From the IMG/VR virus record IMGVR_UViG_3300027704_001882, positions 1 to 26,115 of that record: 26,115 nucleotides of DNA. One strand, written 5' to 3'. How positions within the stretch are numbered: the stretch's first letter is position 1; each line of letters starts with the position of its first letter. The stretch is from a virus. Shown here in pieces: positions 1 to 13,004 of this stretch. The translations under genes were made by a program, and so were the position numbers. The notes beneath the pieces are model-generated. The model ran no database searches, had not been told where the DNA came from, and worked only from the letters and a program-made list of their open reading frames with translations.

Positions 1-472
1 AGCGATGTGTGTACTTGTGGCACATCTGTTTCTCAGCACGATAGAAGTCACGATAAGATTGAACGTGGCACGGCACTGAACCTTTCCAAGCGTCGTACTC
101 AATCTTGTATATGTCAGGCATACACCGTGGTGGGTTACGCCACTCACCCTCTGGCATGTGACGATGGATAGCCATGCTCAGTGTTGGTAACATTTCCTTG
201 GTCTTGTGCTCATGCTCGTAGCGGTACTCAAACTCCTTGGCTAACTCGATAGCATGATCGAGCAACCACTCAGCATGGAGGTAAGACTTACCTACCCACT
301 TGGTCATTGGGTGATGCTCATAGGCAGACTTGTATCCGCCACCATCAAACCCATGGCTACGCACCGCAGTGAACAACATCTGCGCTGACTCAACGAGCAT
401 CTTGCCAACGTGTTTGTCACCTAGTGATCGAGCCGCAACCTTGGGGTCATGGTCTACGAAAAATATATTCAT
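1..472 (-). CDS. Conserved phage hypothetical protein, N-terminal part (runs off left edge)
   Basis: Reading the minus strand from ATG at 472 gives 157 open codons with no stop before the window edge, so this is a 5' part of a gene. The protein starts MNIFFVDHDPKVAARSL and contains DKHVGKMLVESAQMLFTAVR, then HPMTKW, EYRYEHEHKT and MPDIYKIEYDAW...SYRDFYRAEK. From memory this order of motifs is that of a widespread phage protein family (typical form: DxDP, DKHVVKM, E.AQ.L.TA.R, HP.T.W, YR.YY..EK) that is mostly annotated as hypothetical. I do not assign a reaction. The start is supported by a GGAGAAG ribosome site 5 nt upstream and by an ATGA overlap with the stop of the preceding 62-codon gene, which suggests translational coupling at the end of the AAA+/vWA operon. 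Confidence 0.8.
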   Translation of the reverse strand, partial: MNIFFVDHDPKVAARSLGDKHVGKMLVESAQMLFTAVRSHGFDGGGYKSAYEHHPMTKWVGKSYLHAEWLLDHAIELAKEFEYRYEHEHKTKEMLPTLSMAIHRHMPEGEWRNPPRCMPDIYKIEYDAWKGSVPCHVQSYRDFYRAEKQMCHKYTHR

Positions 473-657
473 GTAACTTCTCCAGTGATTAGTTGTTTTA
501 CTTGGTGGTCTACTTCCACGCAGACCGATCTGATCGACGTGTAATCTTTGTGACGTATGCCTCTGGTCTTGATGCGAAGTGCAACTGAAACCCAGAAGCG
601 CATGTCTCTTCGAGGGTGTAAGAAATACCATTCCGTCCTCACCTTGACCCGCTTCAC
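469..657 (-). CDS. Small basic hypothetical protein (62 aa), GTG start
   Basis: I do not recognise this protein. It is 62 residues, rich in Arg, Lys, Val and aromatic residues in its N-terminal half, with no membrane segment and no Cys pair. It begins at a GTG codon that overlaps the TGA stop of the CobT-like gene (GTGA), and its own TGA overlaps the ATG of the next gene (ATGA). Being overlapped at both ends in the same operon is the main evidence that it is a real gene. It is expected to be made by coupled translation with the vWA protein, but nothing in its sequence shows a role. Confidence 0.65.
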   Translation of the reverse strand: MKRVKVRTEWYFLHPRRDMRFWVSVALRIKTRGIRHKDYTSIRSVCVEVDHQVKQLITGEVT

Positions 658-2507
658 ACCACATCCAACAGCTTGCGGTTATCGACAGTGAACCTGTCAC
701 CTAGCAGTGCTTTGGATAGCTGATCGAGGGCTGAACCTGCCAAGTCTGACAGGTCTCTAACGACGGTGTACTTGGGATAGAAACGCTCGACTGAGTCATC
801 AACGATACCGATGCCGATGATGTCAGTCCCTGCTTTGACCGCATTATCTACAGCCTTACGTGTGTATCGTGAGATATTCTTATGGCAACCTGAAGACGCA
901 GGTGAACCGTCCGATAAGACGAGCATCACATGTCGTGACTCTTGACGAGCGGCAAGACGATGCTGTGTCTTAGCGATAGCGTCACCGTCTGCGTTATCCC
1001 ACAGGTTCATGTGCTTGATACCTGCAATAGCACCCTTGGCCTCGAACAATCTCTCTTCGAACTGCTTGAAGATAAACATGTGCAGGGGTGCTGACCTGTC
1101 GTACTCAACACCTTCACGTTTGCATGACACACCACCAAAGTTATTGGTGAACCCTAGTATCTCGTACTTGATACCTGCACTGTCGATGGATTCGGCAAGG
1201 GCAACAACACACTGCTGAGCCAGACCAATCTTGTTTGCACCACCCATGCTACCGCTCAGGTCAACGAGTATGGACACGGCGGTATCAACCTCGGCCTTGT
1301 CTGAGCGCAACTTGAACACGTTGGCACGACCACCGAATGCTTGGACGAACCGTCGTGTATCAAGGCGTCCATCCTCTCGGCCATAATCCCAGTCACGTTT
1401 CTGCTGAGCGAGTAGTGAACGCATCAACTTGGAACGCATGGAATTGATCTCACCTGCCATGGATGCAACGGCCTTGTCGTAGTCCGCTGGCTCACACATG
1501 CTAAACATATGTTGGTGAGCGGATTCGATTGTGCGGTGATGCCATTCATCCTTCTGATCGTATGTAATGTAGGTGAACCCATCCTCAGACGTGGTGAGTT
1601 CGCCATCATCCATCATACGAGTGATAGCTTCGGACATTTCTGGGTCGTAGGGCTCAACTTCTTCTTCGTATGTTTCTGTATCGGGAGCACTGACATCAGT
1701 ATCGGGAAGGCTTGGACGTCCATCGTCCGCATCACCGTCTGAGCTATCTTCATCAGCTCCGACGTCGTCGCTCCCTGCTTCTGTATCGTCATCACTATCG
1801 CCTCGCTCTGAGGTTTTTCCTTCTCCATCACCGCTATCTTCACCATCTTCTCGTTCTTCTGGCTCATCTTTATAGTCTCCATCGTTGAGTGATTGTTCGA
1901 CCACACGAGCGAGTGCGATAACGTCACTCGTACTGTGGCAATGATCGAGTGCGGCTACCCACTTGGTAACCTGTCGTTTAAGATCGTCTGGCATGAGATC
2001 GAGGCATGGCTGGCACGTCTTGCCGCCATAGTCCTTGCGACCCTCAAGCGTAACCATCATTGGTGCAACTGCCATATGCTTGTCTGCGTAGTCAGGATTC
2101 TCACGCATGTGCTGCAAGAACTGATCATTGACTGAGTCAGACGTGGCTATAAGATTGACTACTGCACCGGGATAATCTTCGATAACCCGGCGTTCCATCC
2201 ACACGTCTTCGAGACAATTCCATATGGGCTTGAGCGTCTTGTTGCCACGACGATGTGCATCATTGGCCATACGCAGAACTGCATCTTGGTCTGTATGCTT
2301 CACGTGACCTGCCTCGTGGTCTGTGTAACCACGCAAGATCATGCGTTGCTGTTCAGTCATCACGCTATTCTTGTCGATAGCAGGTAGCGTAATGATCTTG
2401 CCGTTGGTCTTGGCTTGGTTGCCAGAAAACACAACCTTGATGTCCTCCTTGCGACCAAACACTGCGGATGACTTAGTAACTTCGTTTACGAATGTATCCG
2501 TTTTCAT
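654..2507 (-). CDS. cobT: CobT-like protein: HEAGH motif plus C-terminal von Willebrand A domain
   Basis: 617 residues from ATG at 2507, chosen because GGGGGT lies upstream and the ATG follows the stop of the CobS-like gene by 4 nt; a longer reading frame would run into that gene. Order of parts: a globular N-terminal half with HEAGH at 64-68 (HExxH form) and CLEDVWMERR at 98-107; a Cys pair (C165, C168); a very acidic Asp/Glu/Ser linker at about 208-290; then RDWDYGREDGRLDTRR and a vWA domain at about 405-610 with the MIDAS loop DLSGSMGG (D416), DNADGDAI and VLSDGSP. The C-terminal half follows the CobT_C pattern of aerobic cobaltochelatase subunit CobT closely. In that enzyme CobT works with the AAA+ subunit CobS, and here the neighbour is CobS-like. 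No CobN is in view, so the true substrate is unknown. The HExxH motif could bind zinc, which is inference. Confidence 0.85.
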   Translation of the reverse strand: MKTDTFVNEVTKSSAVFGRKEDIKVVFSGNQAKTNGKIITLPAIDKNSVMTEQQRMILRGYTDHEAGHVKHTDQDAVLRMANDAHRRGNKTLKPIWNCLEDVWMERRVIEDYPGAVVNLIATSDSVNDQFLQHMRENPDYADKHMAVAPMMVTLEGRKDYGGKTCQPCLDLMPDDLKRQVTKWVAALDHCHSTSDVIALARVVEQSLNDGDYKDEPEEREDGEDSGDGEGKTSERGDSDDDTEAGSDDVGADEDSSDGDADDGRPSLPDTDVSAPDTETYEEEVEPYDPEMSEAITRMMDDGELTTSEDGFTYITYDQKDEWHHRTIESAHQHMFSMCEPADYDKAVASMAGEINSMRSKLMRSLLAQQKRDWDYGREDGRLDTRRFVQAFGGRANVFKLRSDKAEVDTAVSILVDLSGSMGGANKIGLAQQCVVALAESIDSAGIKYEILGFTNNFGGVSCKREGVEYDRSAPLHMFIFKQFEERLFEAKGAIAGIKHMNLWDNADGDAIAKTQHRLAARQESRHVMLVLSDGSPASSGCHKNISRYTRKAVDNAVKAGTDIIGIGIVDDSVERFYPKYTVVRDLSDLAGSALDQLSKALLGDRFTVDNRKLLDVV

Positions 2508-2511
2508 GTAA

Positions 2512-4359
2512 TTACCCCCATACTCGTTGGCTGATTGCTTTGAGCACCGCTCGGTCATTGACTGAAGCACGATCAAGTATCGTGGTAGCAATGGCTTCCT
2601 CGATGGCTTTCTTCTCGTCGGTGATGAAGCTCATGTAAGCTGTCATGGCCTGACCCAAGGACAAGAAACCACGTGGTGATATGGGTTGCATGACCTTGGA
2701 TTGAGTGAACGCTGTTAGGTGCTCGGTGATGTAGTTGTTAAGTTTTTCTGCATGGGCATCGGCTAACTTAGGCAGACGTGACTTGATTAGCTTCTTCCTG
2801 TCCGCTGGCTTGAGGTAGTCGACCTTGACCCACACGGTGAAGCGATCAAGGAACGCCATGCTCTGTGGCCTCGCACCTTGATACATTCCGTACTCGTCAC
2901 CTTGTCCGACAGTGTTGCCAGTAGCGAACATGCGGAAGAGCTTGTGAGGCTTGATCATACGACCACCATCCTCAGTAAGCATGAGGCCGTTACCTTCAGC
3001 AGCACGTTGTAAGACGTAAGCGATGTCAGGACGCACAAAGTCGATCTCGTCGAGGCATCCGATATACGGGCCAGACATCATCTGAGGTAAGATACCGTCG
3101 ACAAACTTGGACGTAGTCACACCACCCTCATTGGCTAAGACATCACGACCTATCAAATCCATACGAGTGATTTCACTGTCGAAGTTAACACGCATGAAAG
3201 GCCAGTTAAGACGTGCGGCAACTTGCTCGATCAACGTCGTCTTGCCTGTCCCTGTGTGACCGTGAAGATAGCAACGCTGATTAGTCATGACGGCGTAAAG
3301 CACACGCAATAACTCGAAGGGACGGAACACATAATCGTTGTCAACTTCTGGCACATGAGGGTGAACACCGTCCCACTCCCACGTTGGAACCTTGAAGCTG
3401 AACTCCTCCTTGCCACGTGTAAGACCGAACGCTCTCCACGCTTCTTGCGTCGACAACCTACCGCTTGGGATTGTACCGTCGTGCTTGGTCTCCTCCGATG
3501 CGGCTGTGATGGAAACAGCGGGTGTGGACTCTGCCTTGGCTAAGTCTTCAGTCAACGTGTTAATCGTGCCGATCATGTCGTTGATGGGTGGTAGCCCTGC
3601 CTGTGACAACGCGAGGTCGATAAGCGCACTATCAGCAGGTGGATTGAGTACGACAGCCTTGACTGGCTCCGTTTCTGACTCACCGCCATCGTCTTGCAGA
3701 CGTTCGATAATTATCTTGTAGGAACCATGATCTTCAGACGACATCTGATCGAGTTGGAGGTCTGCCTCGGTGCGAGGGGCATCCTTCTCCTCACGAATAC
3801 CAACGAGCGACTTAACACCATTGGCAGTGGCTTCGTCTGTGGCGTCTGAGAGTTGTTTCCAGATGTTCATCTCGTTAATGAAGCCGTTTATGCGGCAGTA
3901 ATCGTAAGCGTTAAGTGCGGCTGTTAAGCTCATAGTTTTCTTCTCCAAGGGTGTTGATTTTAGGTGTGCGGCTAGTACCGCTTCGAAATCTCTGGACTCT
4001 GCGAAGCGATGCTTTCCGCCTCTGCCAGTTGCACAAAGGGAAATGTCCGCTATGCAATTCAACGTACCATCTACGATGCCGAGCACATGGCCATCCTCAT
4101 AGATCGAATGTGGATGGTCGCTCTCAATGAGCAGTGCCATCGTTGTGATCGTCAGGTTGTCGCGAATAACCGATATGGTTGGTCGCTTGGCTACGCTAGG
4201 TGGTAGCGATTCGAGCATTGCATCCTTGACGGCGAAACTGATCCGTCTCTGGGTTTCATCGCTGACTGACTCGGTGAACAGCTTACGAATAGCCGCTCTC
4301 CTCTGCGAGAAGTCGTCGATATCCAGACATGAACGCAGCTTTGTTTGCGTTGGGGTCAT
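2512..4359 (-). CDS. cobS: CobS-like AAA+ ATPase (MoxR-type)
   Basis: 615 residues from ATG at 4359, chosen because GGAG lies 8 nt upstream. The AAA+ module fills the C-terminal half: GHTGTGKT Walker A at 367-374, VNFDSEITRMDLIGRD after it, Walker B CLDEID at 435-440, sensor 1 FATGNT at 478-483, an arginine in FLDRF (R506) and sensor 2 SPRG at 561-564. The P-loop surroundings (EQVAARLNWP, then DS, then DLIG) are those of CobS, the ATPase ring subunit of aerobic cobaltochelatase. Residues 1-330 are an extra N-terminal region I do not recognise; CobS itself is about 330 residues, so this protein is nearly twice as long. An in-frame ATG at codon 143 (3933) carries its own GGAGAAG, so a shorter form is possible. 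The vWA partner follows after 4 nt. Likely acts in the cytoplasm as an ATP-driven remodelling ring on a target presented by the vWA protein. Confidence 0.85.
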   Translation of the reverse strand: MTPTQTKLRSCLDIDDFSQRRAAIRKLFTESVSDETQRRISFAVKDAMLESLPPSVAKRPTISVIRDNLTITTMALLIESDHPHSIYEDGHVLGIVDGTLNCIADISLCATGRGGKHRFAESRDFEAVLAAHLKSTPLEKKTMSLTAALNAYDYCRINGFINEMNIWKQLSDATDEATANGVKSLVGIREEKDAPRTEADLQLDQMSSEDHGSYKIIIERLQDDGGESETEPVKAVVLNPPADSALIDLALSQAGLPPINDMIGTINTLTEDLAKAESTPAVSITAASEETKHDGTIPSGRLSTQEAWRAFGLTRGKEEFSFKVPTWEWDGVHPHVPEVDNDYVFRPFELLRVLYAVMTNQRCYLHGHTGTGKTTLIEQVAARLNWPFMRVNFDSEITRMDLIGRDVLANEGGVTTSKFVDGILPQMMSGPYIGCLDEIDFVRPDIAYVLQRAAEGNGLMLTEDGGRMIKPHKLFRMFATGNTVGQGDEYGMYQGARPQSMAFLDRFTVWVKVDYLKPADRKKLIKSRLPKLADAHAEKLNNYITEHLTAFTQSKVMQPISPRGFLSLGQAMTAYMSFITDEKKAIEEAIATTILDRASVNDRAVLKAISQRVWG

Positions 4360-4441: not shown

Positions 4442-4825
4442 TTAGTGTTCGGAGGGCAAATAGAGCGTGAACTCACCGAACTCGTTGGGTGCTACCCACA
4501 ACTGAAATTCACCGTTTACACGGTCAAAATCGAAGTCTGTGAATGGCACGTTGATGCTGTTGAGGATTTCGTCGTTGCCGTCCTCAAGTATGAGGCAAGC
4601 CCCTTCGCCATCCGGCACGAGCTTGGCTACGACGAAGCTAGTGTCCTTGCCGTCCTTGCGAAGTTCACGAACGTACAAGTCGATGTCCGTCATGAGCCAG
4701 AACGCATCCATTTCTGTGGCTACGTGCGTGACACCTTCGGACATGATGCTTGACGTTAAGCCAAACTTGGCGAAGTCTATTGAACCCGTGAACTGCGAGA
4801 GATTAAGTTGAGTTGAAGTTTGCAT
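4442..4825 (-). CDS. DUF6876 family protein
   Basis: 127 residues. The ATG at 4825 is preceded by AGGAG with good spacing. The sequence shows LSQFTGS near the N-terminus, EGVTHVATEMDAFWLM in the first third, LILEDGNDEIL and INVPFTDFDFD in the second half, and FTLYLPSEH at the very end. This succession (LSQFTGS, DGV.yLAE..GAYWL, EDGN, i.FTDFpLd, LPSE) is what I know as DUF6876, a family of small soluble proteins found in phages and other mobile elements with no established function. Length fits the family, so the gene appears intact. It lies between the small membrane-protein cluster and the AAA+/vWA pair on the same strand, and may be expressed with them. No membrane segment is seen. Confidence 0.8.
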   Translation of the reverse strand: MQTSTQLNLSQFTGSIDFAKFGLTSSIMSEGVTHVATEMDAFWLMTDIDLYVRELRKDGKDTSFVVAKLVPDGEGACLILEDGNDEILNSINVPFTDFDFDRVNGEFQLWVAPNEFGEFTLYLPSEH

Positions 4826-4948: not shown

Positions 4949-5095
4949 TCATTCGTCGTTGTCGACAGAGCCACCGAGGTGACGGTACAGGTCGTCGATC
5001 CACGTTTCTGCGTCGATGTCCCCGTTGATAATATCGTCCTCGATCCACTGCCTGATCTGGCCAGCGAGAAGGGTTTCGTGGTCGTGGTTTTCCAT
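4949..5095 (-). CDS. Small acidic hypothetical protein (48 aa)
   Basis: 48 residues, starting MENHDHETLLAGQIRQWIED and ending GGSVDNDE, with no Cys and a strong excess of Asp and Glu. The ATG shares its A with the TGA stop of the upstream membrane-protein gene (TGATG), and GGAGG lies about 8 nt before it, both of which support a real, translationally coupled gene. It reads as one or two amphipathic helices with WIEDD and WIDDLYRHL segments. I do not recognise a family. Its pairing with the 67-residue membrane protein suggests the two are made together. Confidence 0.6.
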   Translation of the reverse strand: MENHDHETLLAGQIRQWIEDDIINGDIDAETWIDDLYRHLGGSVDNDE

Positions 5096-5298
5096 CACCA
5101 CCTCCACGGTAGGAGCGATAAACACTCGCCCATGATGAGAGAGCCATCAGCAGTCGGGTAGGATTCCCCACAGCCCATGAGCCAGTTCACTACCATCCAC
5201 GCGAAGATCAGGCCGACGAAGGTGGCGACTGCTATTTCGCCTACGATCTCGACCACTTTCGCGCTTATTTTGCGACGTTGTTGACGTTGTATCTGCAT
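5095..5298 (-). CDS. Small single-span membrane protein (67 aa)
   Basis: Start at ATG 5298 is preferred over codons further upstream because AAGGAG precedes it at normal distance, while the longer frame runs back into the terminator hairpin. The protein has a basic N-terminus (MQIQRQQRRK), one hydrophobic span at about residues 19-41 (GEIAVATFVGLIFAWMVVNW), and a short C-terminal tail with two cysteines (C43, C59). The positive-inside rule suggests the N-terminus is cytoplasmic. Size and shape would fit a small phage membrane effector or holin-like protein, but it is not next to a lysis gene and I assign no role. Its stop overlaps the start of the 48-codon gene. Confidence 0.65.
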   Translation of the reverse strand: MQIQRQQRRKISAKVVEIVGEIAVATFVGLIFAWMVVNWLMGCGESYPTADGSLIMGECLSLLPWRW

Positions 5299-5373: not shown

Positions 5374-5790
5374 TTAACTACGCTTGGCTGCGATCAACTT
5401 CGTTGTGAACGCTGTGAATGCGGCTTCGTCGAGTGCGAGAACCTGCGCGGTGAGTGCGTCCATCGCTGACGGGTTAGCCTTCGGCTTAGCGACTGCCTTG
5501 GCCTTGGCCTTAGCCTTCGGCTTGATAGGCGTTACGTCAGCCTTCGGCTCGCGAGGTACTGCGGCCCAAGCTGCGTTGGTGGCTTCACGGCCTTCGGCGG
5601 CGTAAGCGGCCATGCGAAGATCATCACCTGCGGCTGCGGCCTTGGCTGCGTTGATCCAACGCTTGCGCTTGGTCACCTCGGCTTTAGCCGACAGGTACGC
5701 AAGAGCTTCCTTGCGAGTTTTGGCGACGAGGTAGCCGTTGGCTACTTGCGTGAGGGTGCTACCTGCGAATTTGTTAGTTGCGAGTGTCAT
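5374..5790 (-). CDS. Ala/Lys-rich hypothetical protein with histone H1-like tail (138 aa)
   Basis: 138 residues from ATG at 5790, supported by GGAG 9 nt upstream; the open frame extends further 5' but without a ribosome site. The N-terminal part (NGYLVAKTRKEALAYLSAKA, then KRKRWINAAKAAAAGDD) is helical and basic. A low-complexity stretch KPKAKAKAKAVAKPKAN lies at residues 90-106, resembling histone H1 or AlgP-type tails, and a short helix ends in AAKRS. Such tails bind nucleic acid non-specifically in known proteins, so a DNA-binding role is possible but is inference. It is the first gene of the leftward module and is closed by a strong terminator, so it may be expressed separately and strongly. 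Confidence 0.75.
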   Translation of the reverse strand: MTLATNKFAGSTLTQVANGYLVAKTRKEALAYLSAKAEVTKRKRWINAAKAAAAGDDLRMAAYAAEGREATNAAWAAVPREPKADVTPIKPKAKAKAKAVAKPKANPSAMDALTAQVLALDEAAFTAFTTKLIAAKRS

Positions 5791-5842
5791 GTGCGTTACT
5801 CCGATTTGATTTTGCAGATCGACGGAAGGCCGAGCTGTCCCC

Positions 5843-6645: not shown

Positions 6646-6850
6646 AAATATCCAGAAGGACGCGCTTGAATCCAGCATGACGCTAGACCAGTTCGGTAGT
6701 GCAATGAAGCAGGTGAACCTATCTGGGGTATCCACTGAGCGGGTAGGAGAAGCCATTAAGGATCATTTAATGCACATCATGGCTGATACTATTAATGACA
6801 AAGAAAAGGCTCAGGAGATACACATAAGCCGCTTATTGAAGCGCAAATGA
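6635..6850 (+). CDS. Small hypothetical protein between terminase subunits (71 aa)
   Basis: 71 residues from ATG at 6635, supported by AGGAG 9 nt upstream; a TTG two codons earlier is too close to that site. It overlaps the end of the small terminase gene by 11 nt and its TGA overlaps the ATG of the large terminase (ATGA), so it is locked into the packaging operon. The sequence is hydrophilic and helical (MTLDQFGSAMKQVNLSGVS, ending ISRLLKRK). I do not recognise a family. Its position suggests a packaging or assembly accessory, which is inference. Confidence 0.75.
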   Translation: MKIRNIQKDALESSMTLDQFGSAMKQVNLSGVSTERVGEAIKDHLMHIMADTINDKEKAQEIHISRLLKRK

Positions 6851-8472
6851 GTAAGACATTATCTCAATCACAAGTTGCCAAGTACCTACTCAAGTTGCGG
6901 GACGCTCAGGATAACTTTGAGTCCTTTGTTAAGCTGATCTACCCTGAGTGGGAGCTTGCCGATTTTCAGTTAGAGCTAATCGACACGCTAGATAAGCTGG
7001 AGAAAGATACTCTTGGTGTTAACAATGTTCTCATCACGATGCCTCCACGCCATGCCAAATCAACTTTTGGTACAGTCCTGTTCCCCTCATACTTTATGGC
7101 TCGAAACCCTCAAAGATATATCATGTCTTGTTCGTACAATGCTCAACTGGCTACGGACTTTGGGCGACAAGTACGTTCAGTTGTAGAAGACAAGACAATA
7201 ACCCAAGCCTTCCCAGACTTCACTTTATCCAAAGAGAGTAGGGCGGCAGATGTATGGCGTACTGAAGTTGGTGGAGCTTACTTTGCGGTAGGCGTCGGAG
7301 GTACGACGTCTGGCCGACCAGCAAATCTTCTGCTGGTAGATGACCCAATCAAGTCACGTGAAGACGCAGAGTCGATGACCCAGCGCAATAAGACGTGGAA
7401 CTATTACACCTCTGCACTGGCCACTCGTTTACAGCCAGAAGGAGGGGGAGCACCCCCGAAACAAATAGTAATCCTAACTCGCTGGCATCCAGACGACCTT
7501 GCCGGGAGAATAATGGACACGGAAGATTGGAAGGAGGGGCGTTGGAAGCACATCAATTTCCCTGCCATCAAGTCTGCACCCGGAAAGAAGAAGATATCCA
7601 GACGTATGCTTGCGGAAGATGATCCACGCTATGTCACTACTGAAGAGTACAGAGCACTATCCCCGGCTAAACGTAATGTCACTGATGGGGATACCGAAGA
7701 ACCATTATGGCCAGAACGCTTTCCTCTTGAAGAACTGAAGCGAAGAGAACGCCTGAACCCTCGTGAGTTTGCATCGCTATACCAGCAGCAACCTTACATT
7801 GAGGGCGGTAACCTTATCAAAACGGAGTGGTGGAGATCGTATCCAGCAGACCTAAGACCTCAAAAGTTTACCAGCCTAGTCATTACTGCCGACACAGCGT
7901 TTAAGAAAACTGAAACTGCCGACTACAGTGTCATGGTAGTTGCTGGTGTCGACACGACTGGCGACATGTACATAGTCGATATCATAAGAGGTAAGTGGGA
8001 TTTCCCCGAACTCAAGCAGCGCATGATAAGACTAAACAATGAGTGGCGCGGCAAAGGTCTTAGAGCTATTTACATAGAGGACAAGGCCAGTGGCCAATCA
8101 CTCATACAGGAGTTGAAGCGTGAGTCTGGTGTATCCGTCATTCCCTACAAAGTAGTTAATGATAAAGTAGCTAGAGCCAATGCCATTCTTCCTATCATAG
8201 AGGGTGGCAGGGTCTTTCTTCCAGAGGAGTCACCGTGGCTGGATGACTTTATAGACGAAGCAATTAGTTTTCCCAACGGAAACCATGATGACCAAGTAGA
8301 CGCTATGGTTATGGCCATAGATGTTCTGTCTCGCACATCAATATCCCCAGAGGCGTGGTCACTACACACCGACACCTCACAGTCTCTCAATAACAATAGC
8401 CAAGACTTCGGCAAATCTCTTCAGAGAAGTGTCAAAGGGTTAGCTGCAAAATGGAATGGGTGGGGTCTGTAA
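6847..8472 (+). CDS. terL: Terminase large subunit
   Basis: 541 residues. The ATPase half carries MPPRHAKST at 65-73 (Walker A of terminases), LLLVDDP at 161-167 (Walker B) and VILTRWHPDDLAGR at 208-221 (coupling motif region). The nuclease half, from about 340, has VITADTAFKKTETADYS (D349), YIEDKASGQSL (E411, D412) and GNHDDQVDAM (D481, D482), the acidic residues expected of the RNase H-like metal site. The overall pattern is that of the large terminase family with TIGR01630-type C-terminal domain. Length is normal and no frameshift is seen. The protein cuts concatemeric DNA and drives it through the portal, whose gene is next. The start overlaps the preceding stop by ATGA. Confidence 0.96.
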   Translation: MSKTLSQSQVAKYLLKLRDAQDNFESFVKLIYPEWELADFQLELIDTLDKLEKDTLGVNNVLITMPPRHAKSTFGTVLFPSYFMARNPQRYIMSCSYNAQLATDFGRQVRSVVEDKTITQAFPDFTLSKESRAADVWRTEVGGAYFAVGVGGTTSGRPANLLLVDDPIKSREDAESMTQRNKTWNYYTSALATRLQPEGGGAPPKQIVILTRWHPDDLAGRIMDTEDWKEGRWKHINFPAIKSAPGKKKISRRMLAEDDPRYVTTEEYRALSPAKRNVTDGDTEEPLWPERFPLEELKRRERLNPREFASLYQQQPYIEGGNLIKTEWWRSYPADLRPQKFTSLVITADTAFKKTETADYSVMVVAGVDTTGDMYIVDIIRGKWDFPELKQRMIRLNNEWRGKGLRAIYIEDKASGQSLIQELKRESGVSVIPYKVVNDKVARANAILPIIEGGRVFLPEESPWLDDFIDEAISFPNGNHDDQVDAMVMAIDVLSRTSISPEAWSLHTDTSQSLNNNSQDFGKSLQRSVKGLAAKWNGWGL

Positions 8473-8531
8473 GGACGACCATCTGACACATCTCAGTTAT
8501 CTTTGGCATATAGAAATGGACGGTAGCAAAA

Positions 8532-10457
8532 ATGGCTTCACAAACAGGTTACAGGTCAGCGGCTTATCAATCAGGCCCGAACGATGGTGTGATTGTTGAC
8601 CTTTCGGAACATGCGGAAAAATTAGTCAACTATGAAGATATATCTCACCTCCTTTCTGAAGAACAGGAGCGTCGTATCGTGGACTATGTTAAGTCCATGT
8701 CTGATATGTCTTATTCCAAAATTCGTAAACGCTACGATCATTGGAAAGAAGCAGACCGCGCTCACGATGTTTATGTACCTGCCGATGCAACAGAGTTCCG
8801 CGAGAAGGCTGTCATGGCAGATACGAGAGCGATTGCTGACACAGTCCTCACCTATCTCATGGCTGCAATGGGCGGACGAAACCCCATGTTTCAGCTTGAG
8901 GGTTTAAACAGAAAGTCACGCAGCGCATCACTCATCTTAGAGAGAGTGCTGCACCAGCAGATGCGAAGAACAGCGGGAGAGGCACGACTTGCCCAGATGA
9001 TACTGGACAGTATTCGTTATGGCTTTGCCCCGACTAAAATAATTTGGGACGCTAAGTCCAACCAGAATAAGATCGTAAACTTCGACCCCCGCAGGTGCTT
9101 CCCAGACCCACGAGTAAATTGGGGTGACTGGGAGAACATGCAGTTCATCGTGTTTGCAGACTACATGTCTTACAACGCACTATTGAATAGTGGCTTATAC
9201 CCTAAGTTAAAGATGTTCCCAGCTTTACGGAACAAGATTTCTGGTACTCGCAATTCATGGAACGCTCACCATTGGCACAAGGAAGAAGGTCGAGGATTAT
9301 CAATCGACCCAGCCCAGCCGAATGAGAAGAACGCAGATCATGCGTATTTTACGCTTGGTGACGCTAGAGTAGTGGATGAGTCTTGGGTACGTCTATCTGG
9401 TCACGAGATTGGCATCCCTTCGATTGACGAAATATTTCTTGTCCTGACCGTAATGGACGAGAGTGTTGTCATTAGGTTCCAGTTAAACCCCTATGGCCAG
9501 CAGTTCCCTGTTGTTTTCGGTGGGCTTTACCAAGATAGCCATAAGACTTACGGCCAATCGCTGTATGATCTCATACTTCCGATGCACGATATCGCTACAT
9601 TCTTGATGAGATCGCGCATAGATAACATCGGTGCTGCGCTAAACAACCTTATATTCGCTGATCCGACGCAGGTTTCTATACCAGACTTGATAGATCGCAA
9701 CCCATGGGGCATAGTTCGCACACTTCCGGGCAGTAAACCCGGTGATGGCGTGTTCATTGCTCAGGTTCCAGACGTAACACGCGGACATCTCAACGATATA
9801 GCACAGATGTCAGAGCTGAAGCAGCGCGTAAGCGCAGCGTCAGACGCACAACAAGGTATGCCGACCTCAGACGGAATCCGCACAGCAACGGAGATACAGC
9901 GTTTAACCCAACTCGGATCGCAGAGGCTCGGTGTACTCTCGCGCATCATGTCTGCCACAACCATACGGCCAATGGTCAGGATGATGGTAGCGAATATCCA
10001 AGACAGCTTGTCGATGGAAGGGTCGATTAAGATGGACAAGAACAACACGCCCAACCAACTGTCGGGCATGATCCAAGATGGCTATCTTGATTACAATGTT
10101 TCCAAAGACTTGCAGGGAGAAATTGATTTCCTTGTAATAGACGGAACTCTTCCTCTCGAACCCACGCGAAATGCAGAGACGTGGATGAACATGCTCCAGA
10201 TCATGAACCAGACTGGCCTTAATATGGAATACAACGCGGGTCAGATAGCTGAAGAAGCTATTCGAGCCATGGGTATTACTGACATGGACAGGTTCCGCGT
10301 CGACCAGAAGCAGCTTCAAGAGCAAGGGCCAAGTCCTTCTCAGCAATTAGCTATGATGGAGAAAATGCGTGGGGCAAGCGTTCAGCCACAAGAGAACATC
10401 GAGAAAGAAGTTCAAAAAGGCAATCTCATACCTATGTCTGAGGCAGGGAATCGGTAA
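8532..10457 (+). CDS. Portal (head-tail connector) protein
   Basis: 641 residues. It follows the large terminase by 59 nt. The sequence has the features of large portal proteins of short-tailed phages: RAIADTVLTYLMAAMGGRNPMF near residue 100, then IIWDAKSNQNKIVNFDPRRCFPDP, QQFPVVFGGLYQDSHKTYGQSLYDLILPMHD in the middle, and the helical stretch GIRTATEIQRLTQLGSQRLG...RPMVRMM that corresponds to the portal stem and wing region. The C-terminus is Gln-rich and probably flexible. It should form the dodecameric ring at one capsid vertex through which DNA enters and leaves. The ribosome site before the ATG is weak (GGACGGTAGC). An ATG 16 nt upstream is out of frame. Family assigned from pattern and position. 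Confidence 0.88.
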   Translation: MASQTGYRSAAYQSGPNDGVIVDLSEHAEKLVNYEDISHLLSEEQERRIVDYVKSMSDMSYSKIRKRYDHWKEADRAHDVYVPADATEFREKAVMADTRAIADTVLTYLMAAMGGRNPMFQLEGLNRKSRSASLILERVLHQQMRRTAGEARLAQMILDSIRYGFAPTKIIWDAKSNQNKIVNFDPRRCFPDPRVNWGDWENMQFIVFADYMSYNALLNSGLYPKLKMFPALRNKISGTRNSWNAHHWHKEEGRGLSIDPAQPNEKNADHAYFTLGDARVVDESWVRLSGHEIGIPSIDEIFLVLTVMDESVVIRFQLNPYGQQFPVVFGGLYQDSHKTYGQSLYDLILPMHDIATFLMRSRIDNIGAALNNLIFADPTQVSIPDLIDRNPWGIVRTLPGSKPGDGVFIAQVPDVTRGHLNDIAQMSELKQRVSAASDAQQGMPTSDGIRTATEIQRLTQLGSQRLGVLSRIMSATTIRPMVRMMVANIQDSLSMEGSIKMDKNNTPNQLSGMIQDGYLDYNVSKDLQGEIDFLVIDGTLPLEPTRNAETWMNMLQIMNQTGLNMEYNAGQIAEEAIRAMGITDMDRFRVDQKQLQEQGPSPSQQLAMMEKMRGASVQPQENIEKEVQKGNLIPMSEAGNR

Positions 10458-10894
10458 TGACGAAAAAGGTATTACAAAAGAATGTCGATCCCTCTGTCAC
10501 CGCCTATGTTGGTGCTGTCGAGAGCGACATGCTGTCCTCAATAAATCAACTCAAAGAATTGATTTTAGAGCAAGGCAAGCAAGTATCGGAATTAAGAAAA
10601 GATTTACTGAAGGTGCAACAAAGTTCCGACTCTACAGACAGCAGCATCGCAGCAGTAGAGCTGAAAGCTAAGCGTCTTATAGATAAGGCACTTGGCGGCA
10701 GAGATCATGAAGACGGATCATGGAAGGAAGAGGTTCAAGAAGCCACCTTAGCAATAGCGGCTCGCGTTGGGGCTTTTGAAAAACGAATGGACACTATGGA
10801 GGGCAAGCTCACTCGTTACTTCGATAAGGAAAAGTACGCGATAACCAAGGCTATGATCGCCAAAGTAATTAGTGAGGAGAAGGTCAATGGCTGA
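10457..10894 (+). CDS. Coiled-coil hypothetical protein (145 aa)
   Basis: 145 residues, starting at an ATG that overlaps the portal stop (TAATG). The protein is charged and strongly helical: SINQLKELILEQGKQVSELRKDL forms a clear heptad pattern near residues 28-50, and a second helical part (AFEKRMDTMEGKLTRYFDKEKYAI) lies near the C-terminus, separated by a Gly/Asp turn (GGRDHEDGS). I do not recognise a family. Being between portal and fibre genes it could be a connector accessory, a fibre-attachment spacer or an assembly factor. The end overlaps the start of the fibre gene by 8 nt. Confidence 0.8.
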   Translation: MTKKVLQKNVDPSVTAYVGAVESDMLSSINQLKELILEQGKQVSELRKDLLKVQQSSDSTDSSIAAVELKAKRLIDKALGGRDHEDGSWKEEVQEATLAIAARVGAFEKRMDTMEGKLTRYFDKEKYAITKAMIAKVISEEKVNG

Positions 10895-13004
10895 AACAAG
10901 ACCGATAGGTGAACAGCTAAGATTTCTATCATCCAAGACAGGAGCGCATATACTTGATGACTACTTGGAAGCGTCAGAGAAAGGCACTCGTACCCTTAGC
11001 GATATGCTTGATGATTTATTTAATTCATCAGGTGTTTTCCAGTCCAGTCTATTCCAGTTTAGAGAAGACCCCTCTAATGCCGGAACATTTCAAGTTAGAG
11101 TTGGTCAGTTCGTTGGCGCAGACACAGGCTGGACTACCATTACCTTCACAGACTTCGCGGGATATGTCGCTGATGCTCTAACCTATAAGAATGCTGCGGA
11201 AGCAGCAAAGACCGCAGCCGAGAGTGCTCGTGATACTGCGCTGCCTGTCATAAATAATATTGCTGATGTGATAACCACGGCAGCAAATATTACGGATGTT
11301 AACACTGTAGCTGCACAAGCTACTGGTACTAAGACCTATGCGGTTACAGCCGCTGGCGGAAAGTTCTATTTAGACGGGACAATTAATCCAGCTCTAACTT
11401 TGAAAGAAGGGTTCACATACACCTTTGATCTTTCAGATAGCTCTTTATCCACACACCCTTTTAAACTTTCGTCATCCATAAGTGGCTCACCTCTATATAC
11501 AATAGGGGTCACAATTACTGGGACTCATGGTTCGGCTGGGGCTAAGATTGAGATAGTTGTTAATTCTGCCACGCCTAGAACACTTTACTACCTATGCACT
11601 TCACATTCAGGCATGGGTAACACCATCACTTCGCAGCAACACAACTTAGACCTTTTGGCGGCAATCAACGCTAAAATAACAACGGCTGCTAATGTCGTCG
11701 CTCCAGCAATAACAGACGTAATAACCGTAGCAAATAATGTTGTAGATATAGCTGCCGTTGCCTCAGATATTGTAGACGTGAATACCGTGGCGACATCTAT
11801 CGCGAATGTGGATTCCGTTGGAACAAATATTTCGGCAGTCACAACCGTTGCTAATACTGGCAATTTAACAAACATTACAACCGTCTCAAGTAATATAGCC
11901 CACGTCGGAACCGTCGCGTCCAACATTACAGGTGTACAAACAGCAGTAACAAACATTTCCGACATCAACACTGTGGCCTCAAACTTGGGCGCAAGTGGAA
12001 GCATTACAACTGTTTCAAATGCAATAGGCTCGGTTAACGTCACAGGAACAAACATCACAGCCGTACAGACCGTGGCCACTAACATAGCGGCGATAGTAAA
12101 CGTATCGACAGACTTGCTAGAGTCTATTTCAGAGATAGATACCGTTGCGGCTGCAATAGCGAATGTTAATGCAGTAGGCACAAACATAGCTTCGGTCACA
12201 ACTGTTGCCAACGCAGCAGCCCTTGCAAACATTAGCACTGTGGCAACAGGCATAGCGGATGTTAATTCCCTCGCATCAGTATCAGCAAAGATTGCTGCGT
12301 TAGCTGATGTTGAGGATGGTACAACTGCAACAGGTGCTATCACTGGTTTGTTTGCTGACCTAGCTACCATTCAATCCCTTGGCACTAACATCGCTGAGAT
12401 TGTCACCACATCAAACAACATAACATCAGTTATCGCCACGTCTGGAGCAATAACGAACATAAACCAACTTGCTCCTCACGTCGGAGCATCTGGAAACATC
12501 ACGTTGGTGGGCAATTCCATTGGTAATGTGAACGCGCTTGTTCCTCGTTTGGCAGATATACAAACAATTATTGCCGGGACAAATTTAAGCAACATTCAAA
12601 TAACAGCTCAAAATGCTACAGACATAGCTGCTGCTGCTGCAAATATTTCAGACATTGCGACAGCCGCTACTTATGTGACCCAGATTATTGAAGCTCCTCT
12701 ATTTGCAGCGGATGCAGAAAAGTACGCTGTACATGGCACTAACTCTACGTTCACAGACCGAAATGGGAACGTAAATTACTCAGCAAAACACTGGGCTTCT
12801 GTAGCACAGTCGGTGGGTAATGCTTTCGTAACTCTGCAAGGAGATGAGCGAAGCACGGGCGATACGGACGACATCACGGCCAACGGTGCGGCAGACTCTG
12901 TGAAATTCTTGGGTCTTGGCGGAACTAAGGTTCGTACCGATCAATCAACCAAGGAAGTTTATATAGATAGTCGCTCGGTGGCTATGGCAATAGCATTGGG
13001 GTAA
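10887..13004 (+). CDS. Tail fibre protein with cupredoxin-like domain and decapeptide repeats
   Basis: 705 residues from ATG at 10887 (GAGGAGAAGG upstream; an in-frame start five codons earlier lacks a site). Residues 1-92 form an anchor domain shared with the second fibre (YLEASEKGTRTL..., FQFREDPSNAG..., VGADTGW). A short helix with AAEAAKTAAESA follows. Two decapeptide units lie at 124-143. Residues about 147-248 look like a cupredoxin fold with THPFKL (H190) and YYLCTSHSGMG (C237, H240, M243), the His-Cys-His-Met set of type 1 copper sites. From about 262 to 600 the sequence is made of decapeptide units such as DIVDVNTVAT and SIANVDSVGT. The C-terminal 100 residues (TFTDRNGNVNYSAKHWA...) look like a globular tip. 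It should bind the host surface. Placement before the scaffold gene is unusual. Copper binding is inference. Confidence 0.85.
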   Translation: MAETRPIGEQLRFLSSKTGAHILDDYLEASEKGTRTLSDMLDDLFNSSGVFQSSLFQFREDPSNAGTFQVRVGQFVGADTGWTTITFTDFAGYVADALTYKNAAEAAKTAAESARDTALPVINNIADVITTAANITDVNTVAAQATGTKTYAVTAAGGKFYLDGTINPALTLKEGFTYTFDLSDSSLSTHPFKLSSSISGSPLYTIGVTITGTHGSAGAKIEIVVNSATPRTLYYLCTSHSGMGNTITSQQHNLDLLAAINAKITTAANVVAPAITDVITVANNVVDIAAVASDIVDVNTVATSIANVDSVGTNISAVTTVANTGNLTNITTVSSNIAHVGTVASNITGVQTAVTNISDINTVASNLGASGSITTVSNAIGSVNVTGTNITAVQTVATNIAAIVNVSTDLLESISEIDTVAAAIANVNAVGTNIASVTTVANAAALANISTVATGIADVNSLASVSAKIAALADVEDGTTATGAITGLFADLATIQSLGTNIAEIVTTSNNITSVIATSGAITNINQLAPHVGASGNITLVGNSIGNVNALVPRLADIQTIIAGTNLSNIQITAQNATDIAAAAANISDIATAATYVTQIIEAPLFAADAEKYAVHGTNSTFTDRNGNVNYSAKHWASVAQSVGNAFVTLQGDERSTGDTDDITANGAADSVKFLGLGGTKVRTDQSTKEVYIDSRSVAMAIALG
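11670..12686 (+). repeat. Decapeptide repeat region within the fibre gene
   Basis: The coded protein shows many ten-residue units of form (N/D/S)I-x-x-(V/I)-x-x-V-(A/G)-x, for example NIAHVGTVAS, NITGVQTAVT and NISDINTVAS in direct succession. Hydrophobic residues recur with spacing 3, 3, 4. The DNA itself is diverged, so this is a protein-level repeat of about 30 nt. Confidence 0.75.

Follow-up and report, generated by a model that had tools for sequence, protein, structure and literature searches.

A CobS/CobT-like gene pair of a CRP-810-type virus as a candidate AAA+/vWA machine with a metallopeptidase-like domain

Viral cobS and cobT genes are already known and are usually read as genes of vitamin B12 metabolism. 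In the accessible text of Liu et al. 2021 (PMC8651126), viral CobST is proposed to hijack the CobN protein of the host and the 'peptidase' label on cyanophage cobT is deemed a mistake; the B12 reading is repeated in the available portion of a 2026 estuary study (PMC13390420). According to the accessible sections of Wu et al. 2024 (PMC11288001), cobS and cobT are present in almost all CRP-810-type phages, and the function of cobS in phages is called uncertain. Here we analyse such a pair in the IMG/VR virus record IMGVR_UViG_3300027704_001882, the whole of which (26,115 bases) is hereafter called the window and supplies the coordinates given below. The pair encodes a CobS-like AAA+ ATPase and a CobT-like vWA protein with a metal ion-dependent adhesion site (MIDAS), and the N-terminal domain (N-domain) of the latter carries a conserved HExxH...NxxED motif. 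We give a little better than an even chance to the reading that the two proteins make up an AAA+/vWA machine of mobile elements, with a metallopeptidase domain of zincin type in the vWA subunit. The genes are the same as those treated by Liu et al. and Wu et al., where they are read as B12 genes and where, as far as the accessible text of both papers goes, neither the peptidase site nor the small gene coupled to the pair is described.

The nearest isolate is Roseobacter phage CRP-810 (complete genome, 57.7 kb), which shows 72.3% DNA identity across 58% of window positions 6847-13004. The terminase/portal genes and the cobS-cobT block are common to the window and CRP-810, which places the window in the CRP-810 type, and CRP-810 gp06 and gp07 are the nearest isolated homologues of the pair (49.5 and 46.8% identity, respectively). 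Genes related to the pair are found in phage records by the hundred and in plasmid records by the thousand. An initial annotation, made from the sequence alone, had described an AAA+ ATPase and a vWA protein encoded 4 nt apart, with a full AAA+ motif set, a CobT_C-like vWA domain with intact MIDAS residues and an extended ATPase N-terminus. This description was borne out: both open reading frames (ORFs) are genuine, their products are homologues of CobS and CobT, and the gap between them lies at 2508-2511. The features of the pair are as follows.

2512-4359, minus strand: CobS-like AAA+ ATPase, ATG start, 615 aa (Pfam AAA_5, E 9e-16)
3370-4359, minus strand: N-terminal extension of the ATPase, residues 1-330, lineage-specific
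3238-3261, minus strand: Walker A, GHTGTGKT, residues 367-374
3040-3054, minus strand: Walker B, LDEID, from residue 436
654-2507, minus strand: CobT-like vWA protein with N-terminal zincin-like domain, ATG start, 617 aa
1863-2507, minus strand: N-domain of the vWA protein, residues 1-215, predicted metallopeptidase-like fold, homologous to the CobT N-domain
2304-2318, minus strand: HEAGH, residues 64-68, putative zinc-binding/catalytic motif
2193-2219, minus strand: N97xxE100-D101xxxE105, putative glutamate-helix motif
1662-1856, minus strand: acidic disordered linker, residues 218-282 (predicted local distance difference test, pLDDT, <50)
699-1319, minus strand: vWA domain with MIDAS (DLSGS at 1248-1262, SDG at 906-914), CobT_C match

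Besides the Walker motifs, the ATPase contains the sensor 1 motif ATGNT at residue 479 and RFT at residue 506, with arginines R506 and R563 completing the AAA+ set. In the vWA protein, the MIDAS residues lie in DLSGS (416-420) and SDG (532-534), and the Pfam matches are CobT_C (E 5.6e-28), CobT (PF06213; E 2.9e-18) and VWA. The N-terminal extension of the ATPase amounts to about 300 residues, since canonical CobS can be aligned only from residue 333 (residues 37-248 of a solved 328-aa CobS chain align to ATPase residues 333-544). When the ATPase N-terminus was used as query, matches were obtained at 48 of 81 loci, many of them from residue ~240 onward only; by sequence comparison, just the last ~90 residues of the extension are recognisable outside close relatives.

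The HExxH/NxxED motif was missed by the initial annotation. It consists of HEAGH (residues 64-68, within DHEAGH) followed by NCLEDVWME (97-105). Zincins have an HExxH helix, to which gluzincins add a second acidic helix, and HEAGH together with N97..E100-D101...E105 suggests a gluzincin-like zinc-peptidase signature. Because HExxH arises in 3% of shuffled copies of the vWA protein, the weight of the motif lies in its conservation and not in a single occurrence. Among 79 viral loci of the window's phage group, HExxH is present in 76 and the whole HExxH...N..ED...E motif in 74. In the 47 loci that match the MIDAS pattern, a subset defined independently of the motif, the corresponding numbers are 45 and 43; of the four that lack the whole motif, two (L160 and L168) are N-terminally truncated and two (L150 and L154) have HESSH and an altered second motif. 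The motif was also found in all 80 cyanophage-type loci, which were retrieved by patterns lying outside the N-domain, and in 65 of 70 phage-plasmid-type loci, the N-terminus being missing in the other five. The vWA-type proteins of cyanophages P-SSM2 and S-SSM7 bear the annotation "peptidase". The copy of halovirus HVTV-1 reads HECGH...NAAEDGAIER, the copies on IncC, pECTOK-001_1 and Acinetobacter plasmids also have the motif, and that of an IncHI2 plasmid has HEAGH with a variant second motif. For the alignments of the group (A3 and A4), rows were picked for HE-x2/3-H and an ORF of at least 550 aa and were thinned for similarity, giving 51 candidates out of the 79 loci, 50 of which were aligned with the window (one A4 row, L118, was retained despite a garbled N-terminus). 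The invariance of H64, E65 and H68 in these alignments is therefore partly by choice, whereas N97, E100 and D101 played no part in the selection.

In cellular CobT, the motif was found in 0 of 80 loci (the best 80 of 501 confirmed loci, SAR11 and Caulobacter included), the single HExxH among them (L038) being unrelated and in a read-through region. When the viral N-domain profile (A4) was compared with that of cellular CobT (A5) by hhalign, the two were matched with a probability of 98 and an E value of 2e-13, HEAGH lying opposite the QMALRL region and NCLEDVWMERR opposite DAIEAARIEAV; as judged from these profiles, cellular CobT has a homologous N-domain without the motif. A tree restricted to the vWA part (84 rows, 262 columns) was inferred by a quick method, with a more permissive definition of the motif, by which L211 was scored as having it, and with the IncHI2 copy, in which no MIDAS was found, left out. 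In this tree, 15 cellular CobT rows and six low-scoring motif-less relatives form one clade (Shimodaira-Hasegawa-like approximate likelihood ratio test value, 99), and at least three changes of motif are required. The parsimonious reading is that cellular CobT is the relative that lost the site, which falls short of proof because the tree lacks a root and contains long branches, as flagged in the analysis. PF06213 matched in 127 genomes, from 15 of which 16 low-scoring places were fetched; five of these bacterial places have the motif, a proportion that describes a selected sample and not a frequency. CobN was present in one of the five sampled bacterial genomes with a motif-bearing relative.

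The full-length model of the vWA protein has a pLDDT of 79.5, and that of the N-domain 92.4. In the latter, strands are predicted at residues 24-27 and 38-41, and the HExxH motif (H64-E65-x-x-H68) lies in a helix (52-71) followed by a second helix (92-111) with E100 and D101; this is the arrangement expected of a gluzincin, with E100 as a putative ligand. For the N-domain, VIA-align placed BlaR1, selecase, abylysin, jannalysin, M1 aminopeptidases, SPRTN, Wss1, IrrE and ArdC among its best rows, and 22 of the 24 best rows (Z 5.3-3.9, several being repeats of one protein) are what we take to be zincins. The minigluzincins (abylysin 4jiu, jannalysin 4jix and selecase 4qhf) and SPRTN/Wss1/IrrE are thus among the best rows, at weak Z values of 4.0-5.3 and with no sequence match found; to our knowledge, none of these zincins is linked to an AAA+/vWA system. 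Since Z is low and the Foldseek pre-selection sees sequence, the zincin match is counted as supporting only. Most matches in BFVD were other phage CobT/vWA proteins, the rest being low-scoring rows. A Pfam search of the tested N-domains at a lax cut-off yielded no known peptidase family, only CobT and unrelated sub-threshold rows. A match of AcrIIA26 to the N-domain profile (E 5.7e-4) was taken as chance, the matched stretch excluding HExxH. A peptidase reading was not found in the literature on viral cobST, in which subscription journals were thinly covered, and a paper on a T4-like phage with listed vWA and AAA domains held nothing of use.

For the vWA half, the best fold matches are NorD of NorQD complexes and the MIDAS domain of Rea1/Mdn1, both of which are partners of AAA+ proteins. 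NorQ-NorD and Rea1/Mdn1 share with the proposed machine an AAA+ ring and a vWA/MIDAS partner, and neither has a peptidase domain as far as we know. These folds would also suit a MoxR/NorQD-like chaperone, in which the pair remodels or metal-loads a phage or host protein and the N-domain binds metal or substrate without cutting. Some phages keep the pair and have lost the motif, and cellular CobT is itself a homologue without it, as this explanation would allow. However, a bare scaffold would need no full set of HExxH and Asn/Glu/Asp residues maintained across cyanophages, roseophages, a halovirus and plasmids, and we regard a non-cutting chaperone as unlikely, although it and the B12 reading are the chief competitors of the peptidase reading.

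The cellular CobS and CobT families (TIGR01650 and TIGR01651; solved CobST chains 9uka and 9ujv) resemble the window pair in the AAA+ core, the CobT N-domain, the CobT_C vWA domain and the pairing of the genes, whereas the window pair has no accompanying CobN, an intact HExxH/NxxED motif and the additional N-terminal residues of the ATPase, and scores far below the family cut-offs. Against the CobT equivalog TIGR01651, the vWA protein scored 146.8 bits (cut-off 759.05), and against the CobS equivalog TIGR01650, the ATPase scored 169.9 bits over residues 322-613 only (cut-off 558.55). Positive controls, available for CobT only, were two cellular CobT proteins that scored 968 and 1130; the CobT of SAR11 scored 741.8 bits in the same search. 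No CobN was found in the window, which is a fragment, or in any of 20 related records, i.e. the complete records of CRP-810 and the Zobellviridae phage T5S1 and 18 viral contigs of 44-62 kb, and the same search was positive in 5 of 14 control genomes. In the control panel, Caulobacter has CobT and no CobN match. SAR11 (L043, L050, L064, L092 and L097) and Caulobacter likewise have CobT without CobN and without the motif, so that orphan CobST exists in bacteria too. Because CobN is absent from all 20 records and the scores are far below the cut-offs, the pair is probably not an ordinary chelatase set, and a machine with another target is therefore the better reading. The suggestion of such a stand-alone machine is in this respect upheld; the targets listed with it were guesses.

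A B12 role could still be served if viral CobST replaced or boosted the CobS/CobT of the host and used host CobN, raising cobalamin for phage replication, e.g. for a B12-dependent ribonucleotide reductase. Such a role has been proposed and repeated in the available text of the papers cited above (PMC8651126 and PMC13390420), both chelatase domains are homologous, and phage T5S1 encodes an NrdJ-type B12-dependent reductase (538 bits, cut-off 399.95). The absence of CobN from the 20 records argues against it, as does the fact that Escherichia coli, which hosts pair-bearing phage-plasmids and conjugative plasmids with relatives of the pair, gave no CobN match in the control panel. A search for nrdJ, recommended with the initial annotation, gave a divided answer: ribonucleotide reductase was found in 5 of the 20 records, all of 44-45 kb, and in neither CRP-810 nor the 14 records of 52-62 kb, i.e. 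in none of the CRP-810 size class. CRP-810 gp49 (L002:14213-14371) is labelled as the A subunit of ribonucleotide reductase; this is probably a misannotation, because the product is only ~52 aa and the family search found no reductase in CRP-810. In addition, the accessible parts of two papers describe the CHUG lineage, to which the host of CRP-810 belongs, as missing two B12-synthesis genes (PMC11288001) and as having lost de novo B12 synthesis (PMC9426536). The conserved HExxH/NxxED motif would be left unexplained by a B12 role, which we consider improbable for the pair.

The genes flanking the pair in the window are as follows.

469-657, minus strand: small basic protein, 62 aa, GTG start overlapping the stop codon of the vWA gene
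2-472, minus strand: pyrimidine-dimer glycosylase-like gene, cut by the window end
4442-4825, minus strand: DUF6876 small protein (E 3.9e-19), upstream of the ATPase gene
5095-5298, minus strand: small protein with a hydrophobic stretch
5374-5793, minus strand: Ala/Lys-rich small protein

In 76 of 79 viral loci, the two genes share a strand, with the CobS-like one upstream; the contigs of the other three begin at the CobT-like gene, and the gap is at most 234 nt in 58 of the 76. A gene for a ~60-aa protein directly downstream of the CobT-like gene, overlooked by the initial annotation, is present at 53 of 72 testable loci, its frame usually overlapping or touching the CobT-like stop codon. The protein has the signature W-x4-P...FWxxV, with the W, the P, the FW pair and the V kept in 53-54 of 54 aligned rows; it matched nothing in Pfam save one sub-threshold row, and none of the Zobellviridae-type loci in the set yielded the gene. 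It also occurs at L001:5578-5817, and in CRP-810 as a frame without a listed gene. A link to the three upstream small genes, which had been proposed earlier, proved weak, homologues of the DUF6876, hydrophobic-stretch and Ala/Lys-rich genes being found at 5 (nearest relatives only), 24 and 14 of 81 loci, respectively. The pyrimidine-dimer glycosylase neighbour occurs at 39 of 81 loci. The Ala/Lys-rich protein has a histone H1-like tail (AKAKAKAVAKPKA) and matched nothing in Pfam or PHROG.

In other elements, the pair is near gp46 and the clamp genes gp45/44 in cyanophages P-SSM2 and S-SSM7 (Syn30 is similar), near a primase gene in ICP2 and next to the gene for DNA polymerase III alpha in most phage-plasmid types fetched. 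IncC and related conjugative plasmids resemble the window in having HExxH...NxxEDxRIE and a nearby AAA+ gene, and differ from it in an additional DUF3150 gene and in a location beside ssb/bet/exo or recT/exo. One IncC stretch (L217:786-8779) reads AAA+ / ... ssb / bet / exo / DUF3150 / vWA, with the motif HEAAH...NVLEDCRIE; on this conjugative plasmid, a related machine adjoins a recombination module. In halovirus HVTV-1 (L301:25607-32250), the pair is near an annotated SprT-like protein, which is another zincin.

The spread across phages, phage-plasmids and conjugative plasmids would also fit a counter-defence or host-takeover module aimed at one host defence or regulatory protein, a task for which an AAA+ protease would be suitable. 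The PADLOC matches (IetA and PDC-M16A for the ATPase, a trace of Csx1 for the vWA protein) are weak, those of the ATPase covering only its AAA+ core; we regard such a module as quite improbable. A virion maturation protease or structural factor, as might be supposed for a peptidase encoded in a phage with terminase and portal genes starting about 2.5-4 kb from the ATPase gene, is very improbable, given that the operon is on the strand opposite the structural genes, that named relatives lie near gp46/clamp genes, DNA polymerase III alpha or ssb/bet/exo, and that relatives are carried by conjugative plasmids, which make no virions.

In the AAA+/vWA peptidase that we favour, the CobS-like protein would form an ATP-driven AAA+ ring, on which the vWA/MIDAS domain of the CobT-like protein would dock and pick the partner. 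The ring would unfold or remodel this partner and pass it on, with the acidic linker as a flexible bridge, to the HExxH domain at the N-terminus. This domain may bind zinc via H64, H68 and either E100 or an acidic residue next to it, and would cut the remodelled partner with E65 as the general base. In the CRP-810-type group, the ~60-aa protein may act as an adaptor. The target may be an early one, either a protein on DNA or a host protein impeding replication; an early target would be more likely than virion maturation because, in those named phages and plasmids that were examined, the surrounding genes usually serve replication, recombination or repair.

Several observations weigh against this reading. 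Phages nickie and BUCTxx99 no longer have HExxH, and ICP2 keeps HECYH without the ED, so the peptidase site appears to be dispensable in some lineages. A zincin-like domain can serve as a non-catalytic scaffold, the N-domain gave no Foldseek match below E 0.001 in the PDB, and its Z values are under the level where chance arrangements are common. The reductase genes of the five relatives of 44-45 kb fit a B12 role in those phages, the only enzyme that was typed being B12-dependent. Furthermore, CobT (match of at least 100 bits) occurs without CobN in 33 of 114 sampled cellular genomes, and CobN was found in 0 of 26 SAR11 genomes; because orphan CobT is also common in cells, a missing CobN is on its own no evidence for proteolysis. 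The retention of the pair with a degraded motif in nickie, ICP2 and BUCTxx99 (L015, L016 and L017) constitutes a natural test of the need for the site.

On a broader scale, we suggest tentatively, and at somewhat less than even confidence, that an unrecognised class of AAA+/vWA metallopeptidases, so far filed under cobalamin genes, is common to phages, phage-plasmids, haloviruses and conjugative plasmids, that cellular CobT is a catalytically dead offshoot of this class, and that many cobS/cobT genes reported as auxiliary metabolic genes in viromes are not about B12. It is common practice to list viral cobS and cobT among the auxiliary metabolic genes for B12. Should the vWA subunit prove to be a peptidase, the ecological claims made on this footing would have to be revised, a new role would fall to the cobS of the cyanophage core, and the origin of the chelatase subunit would become a question of exaptation.

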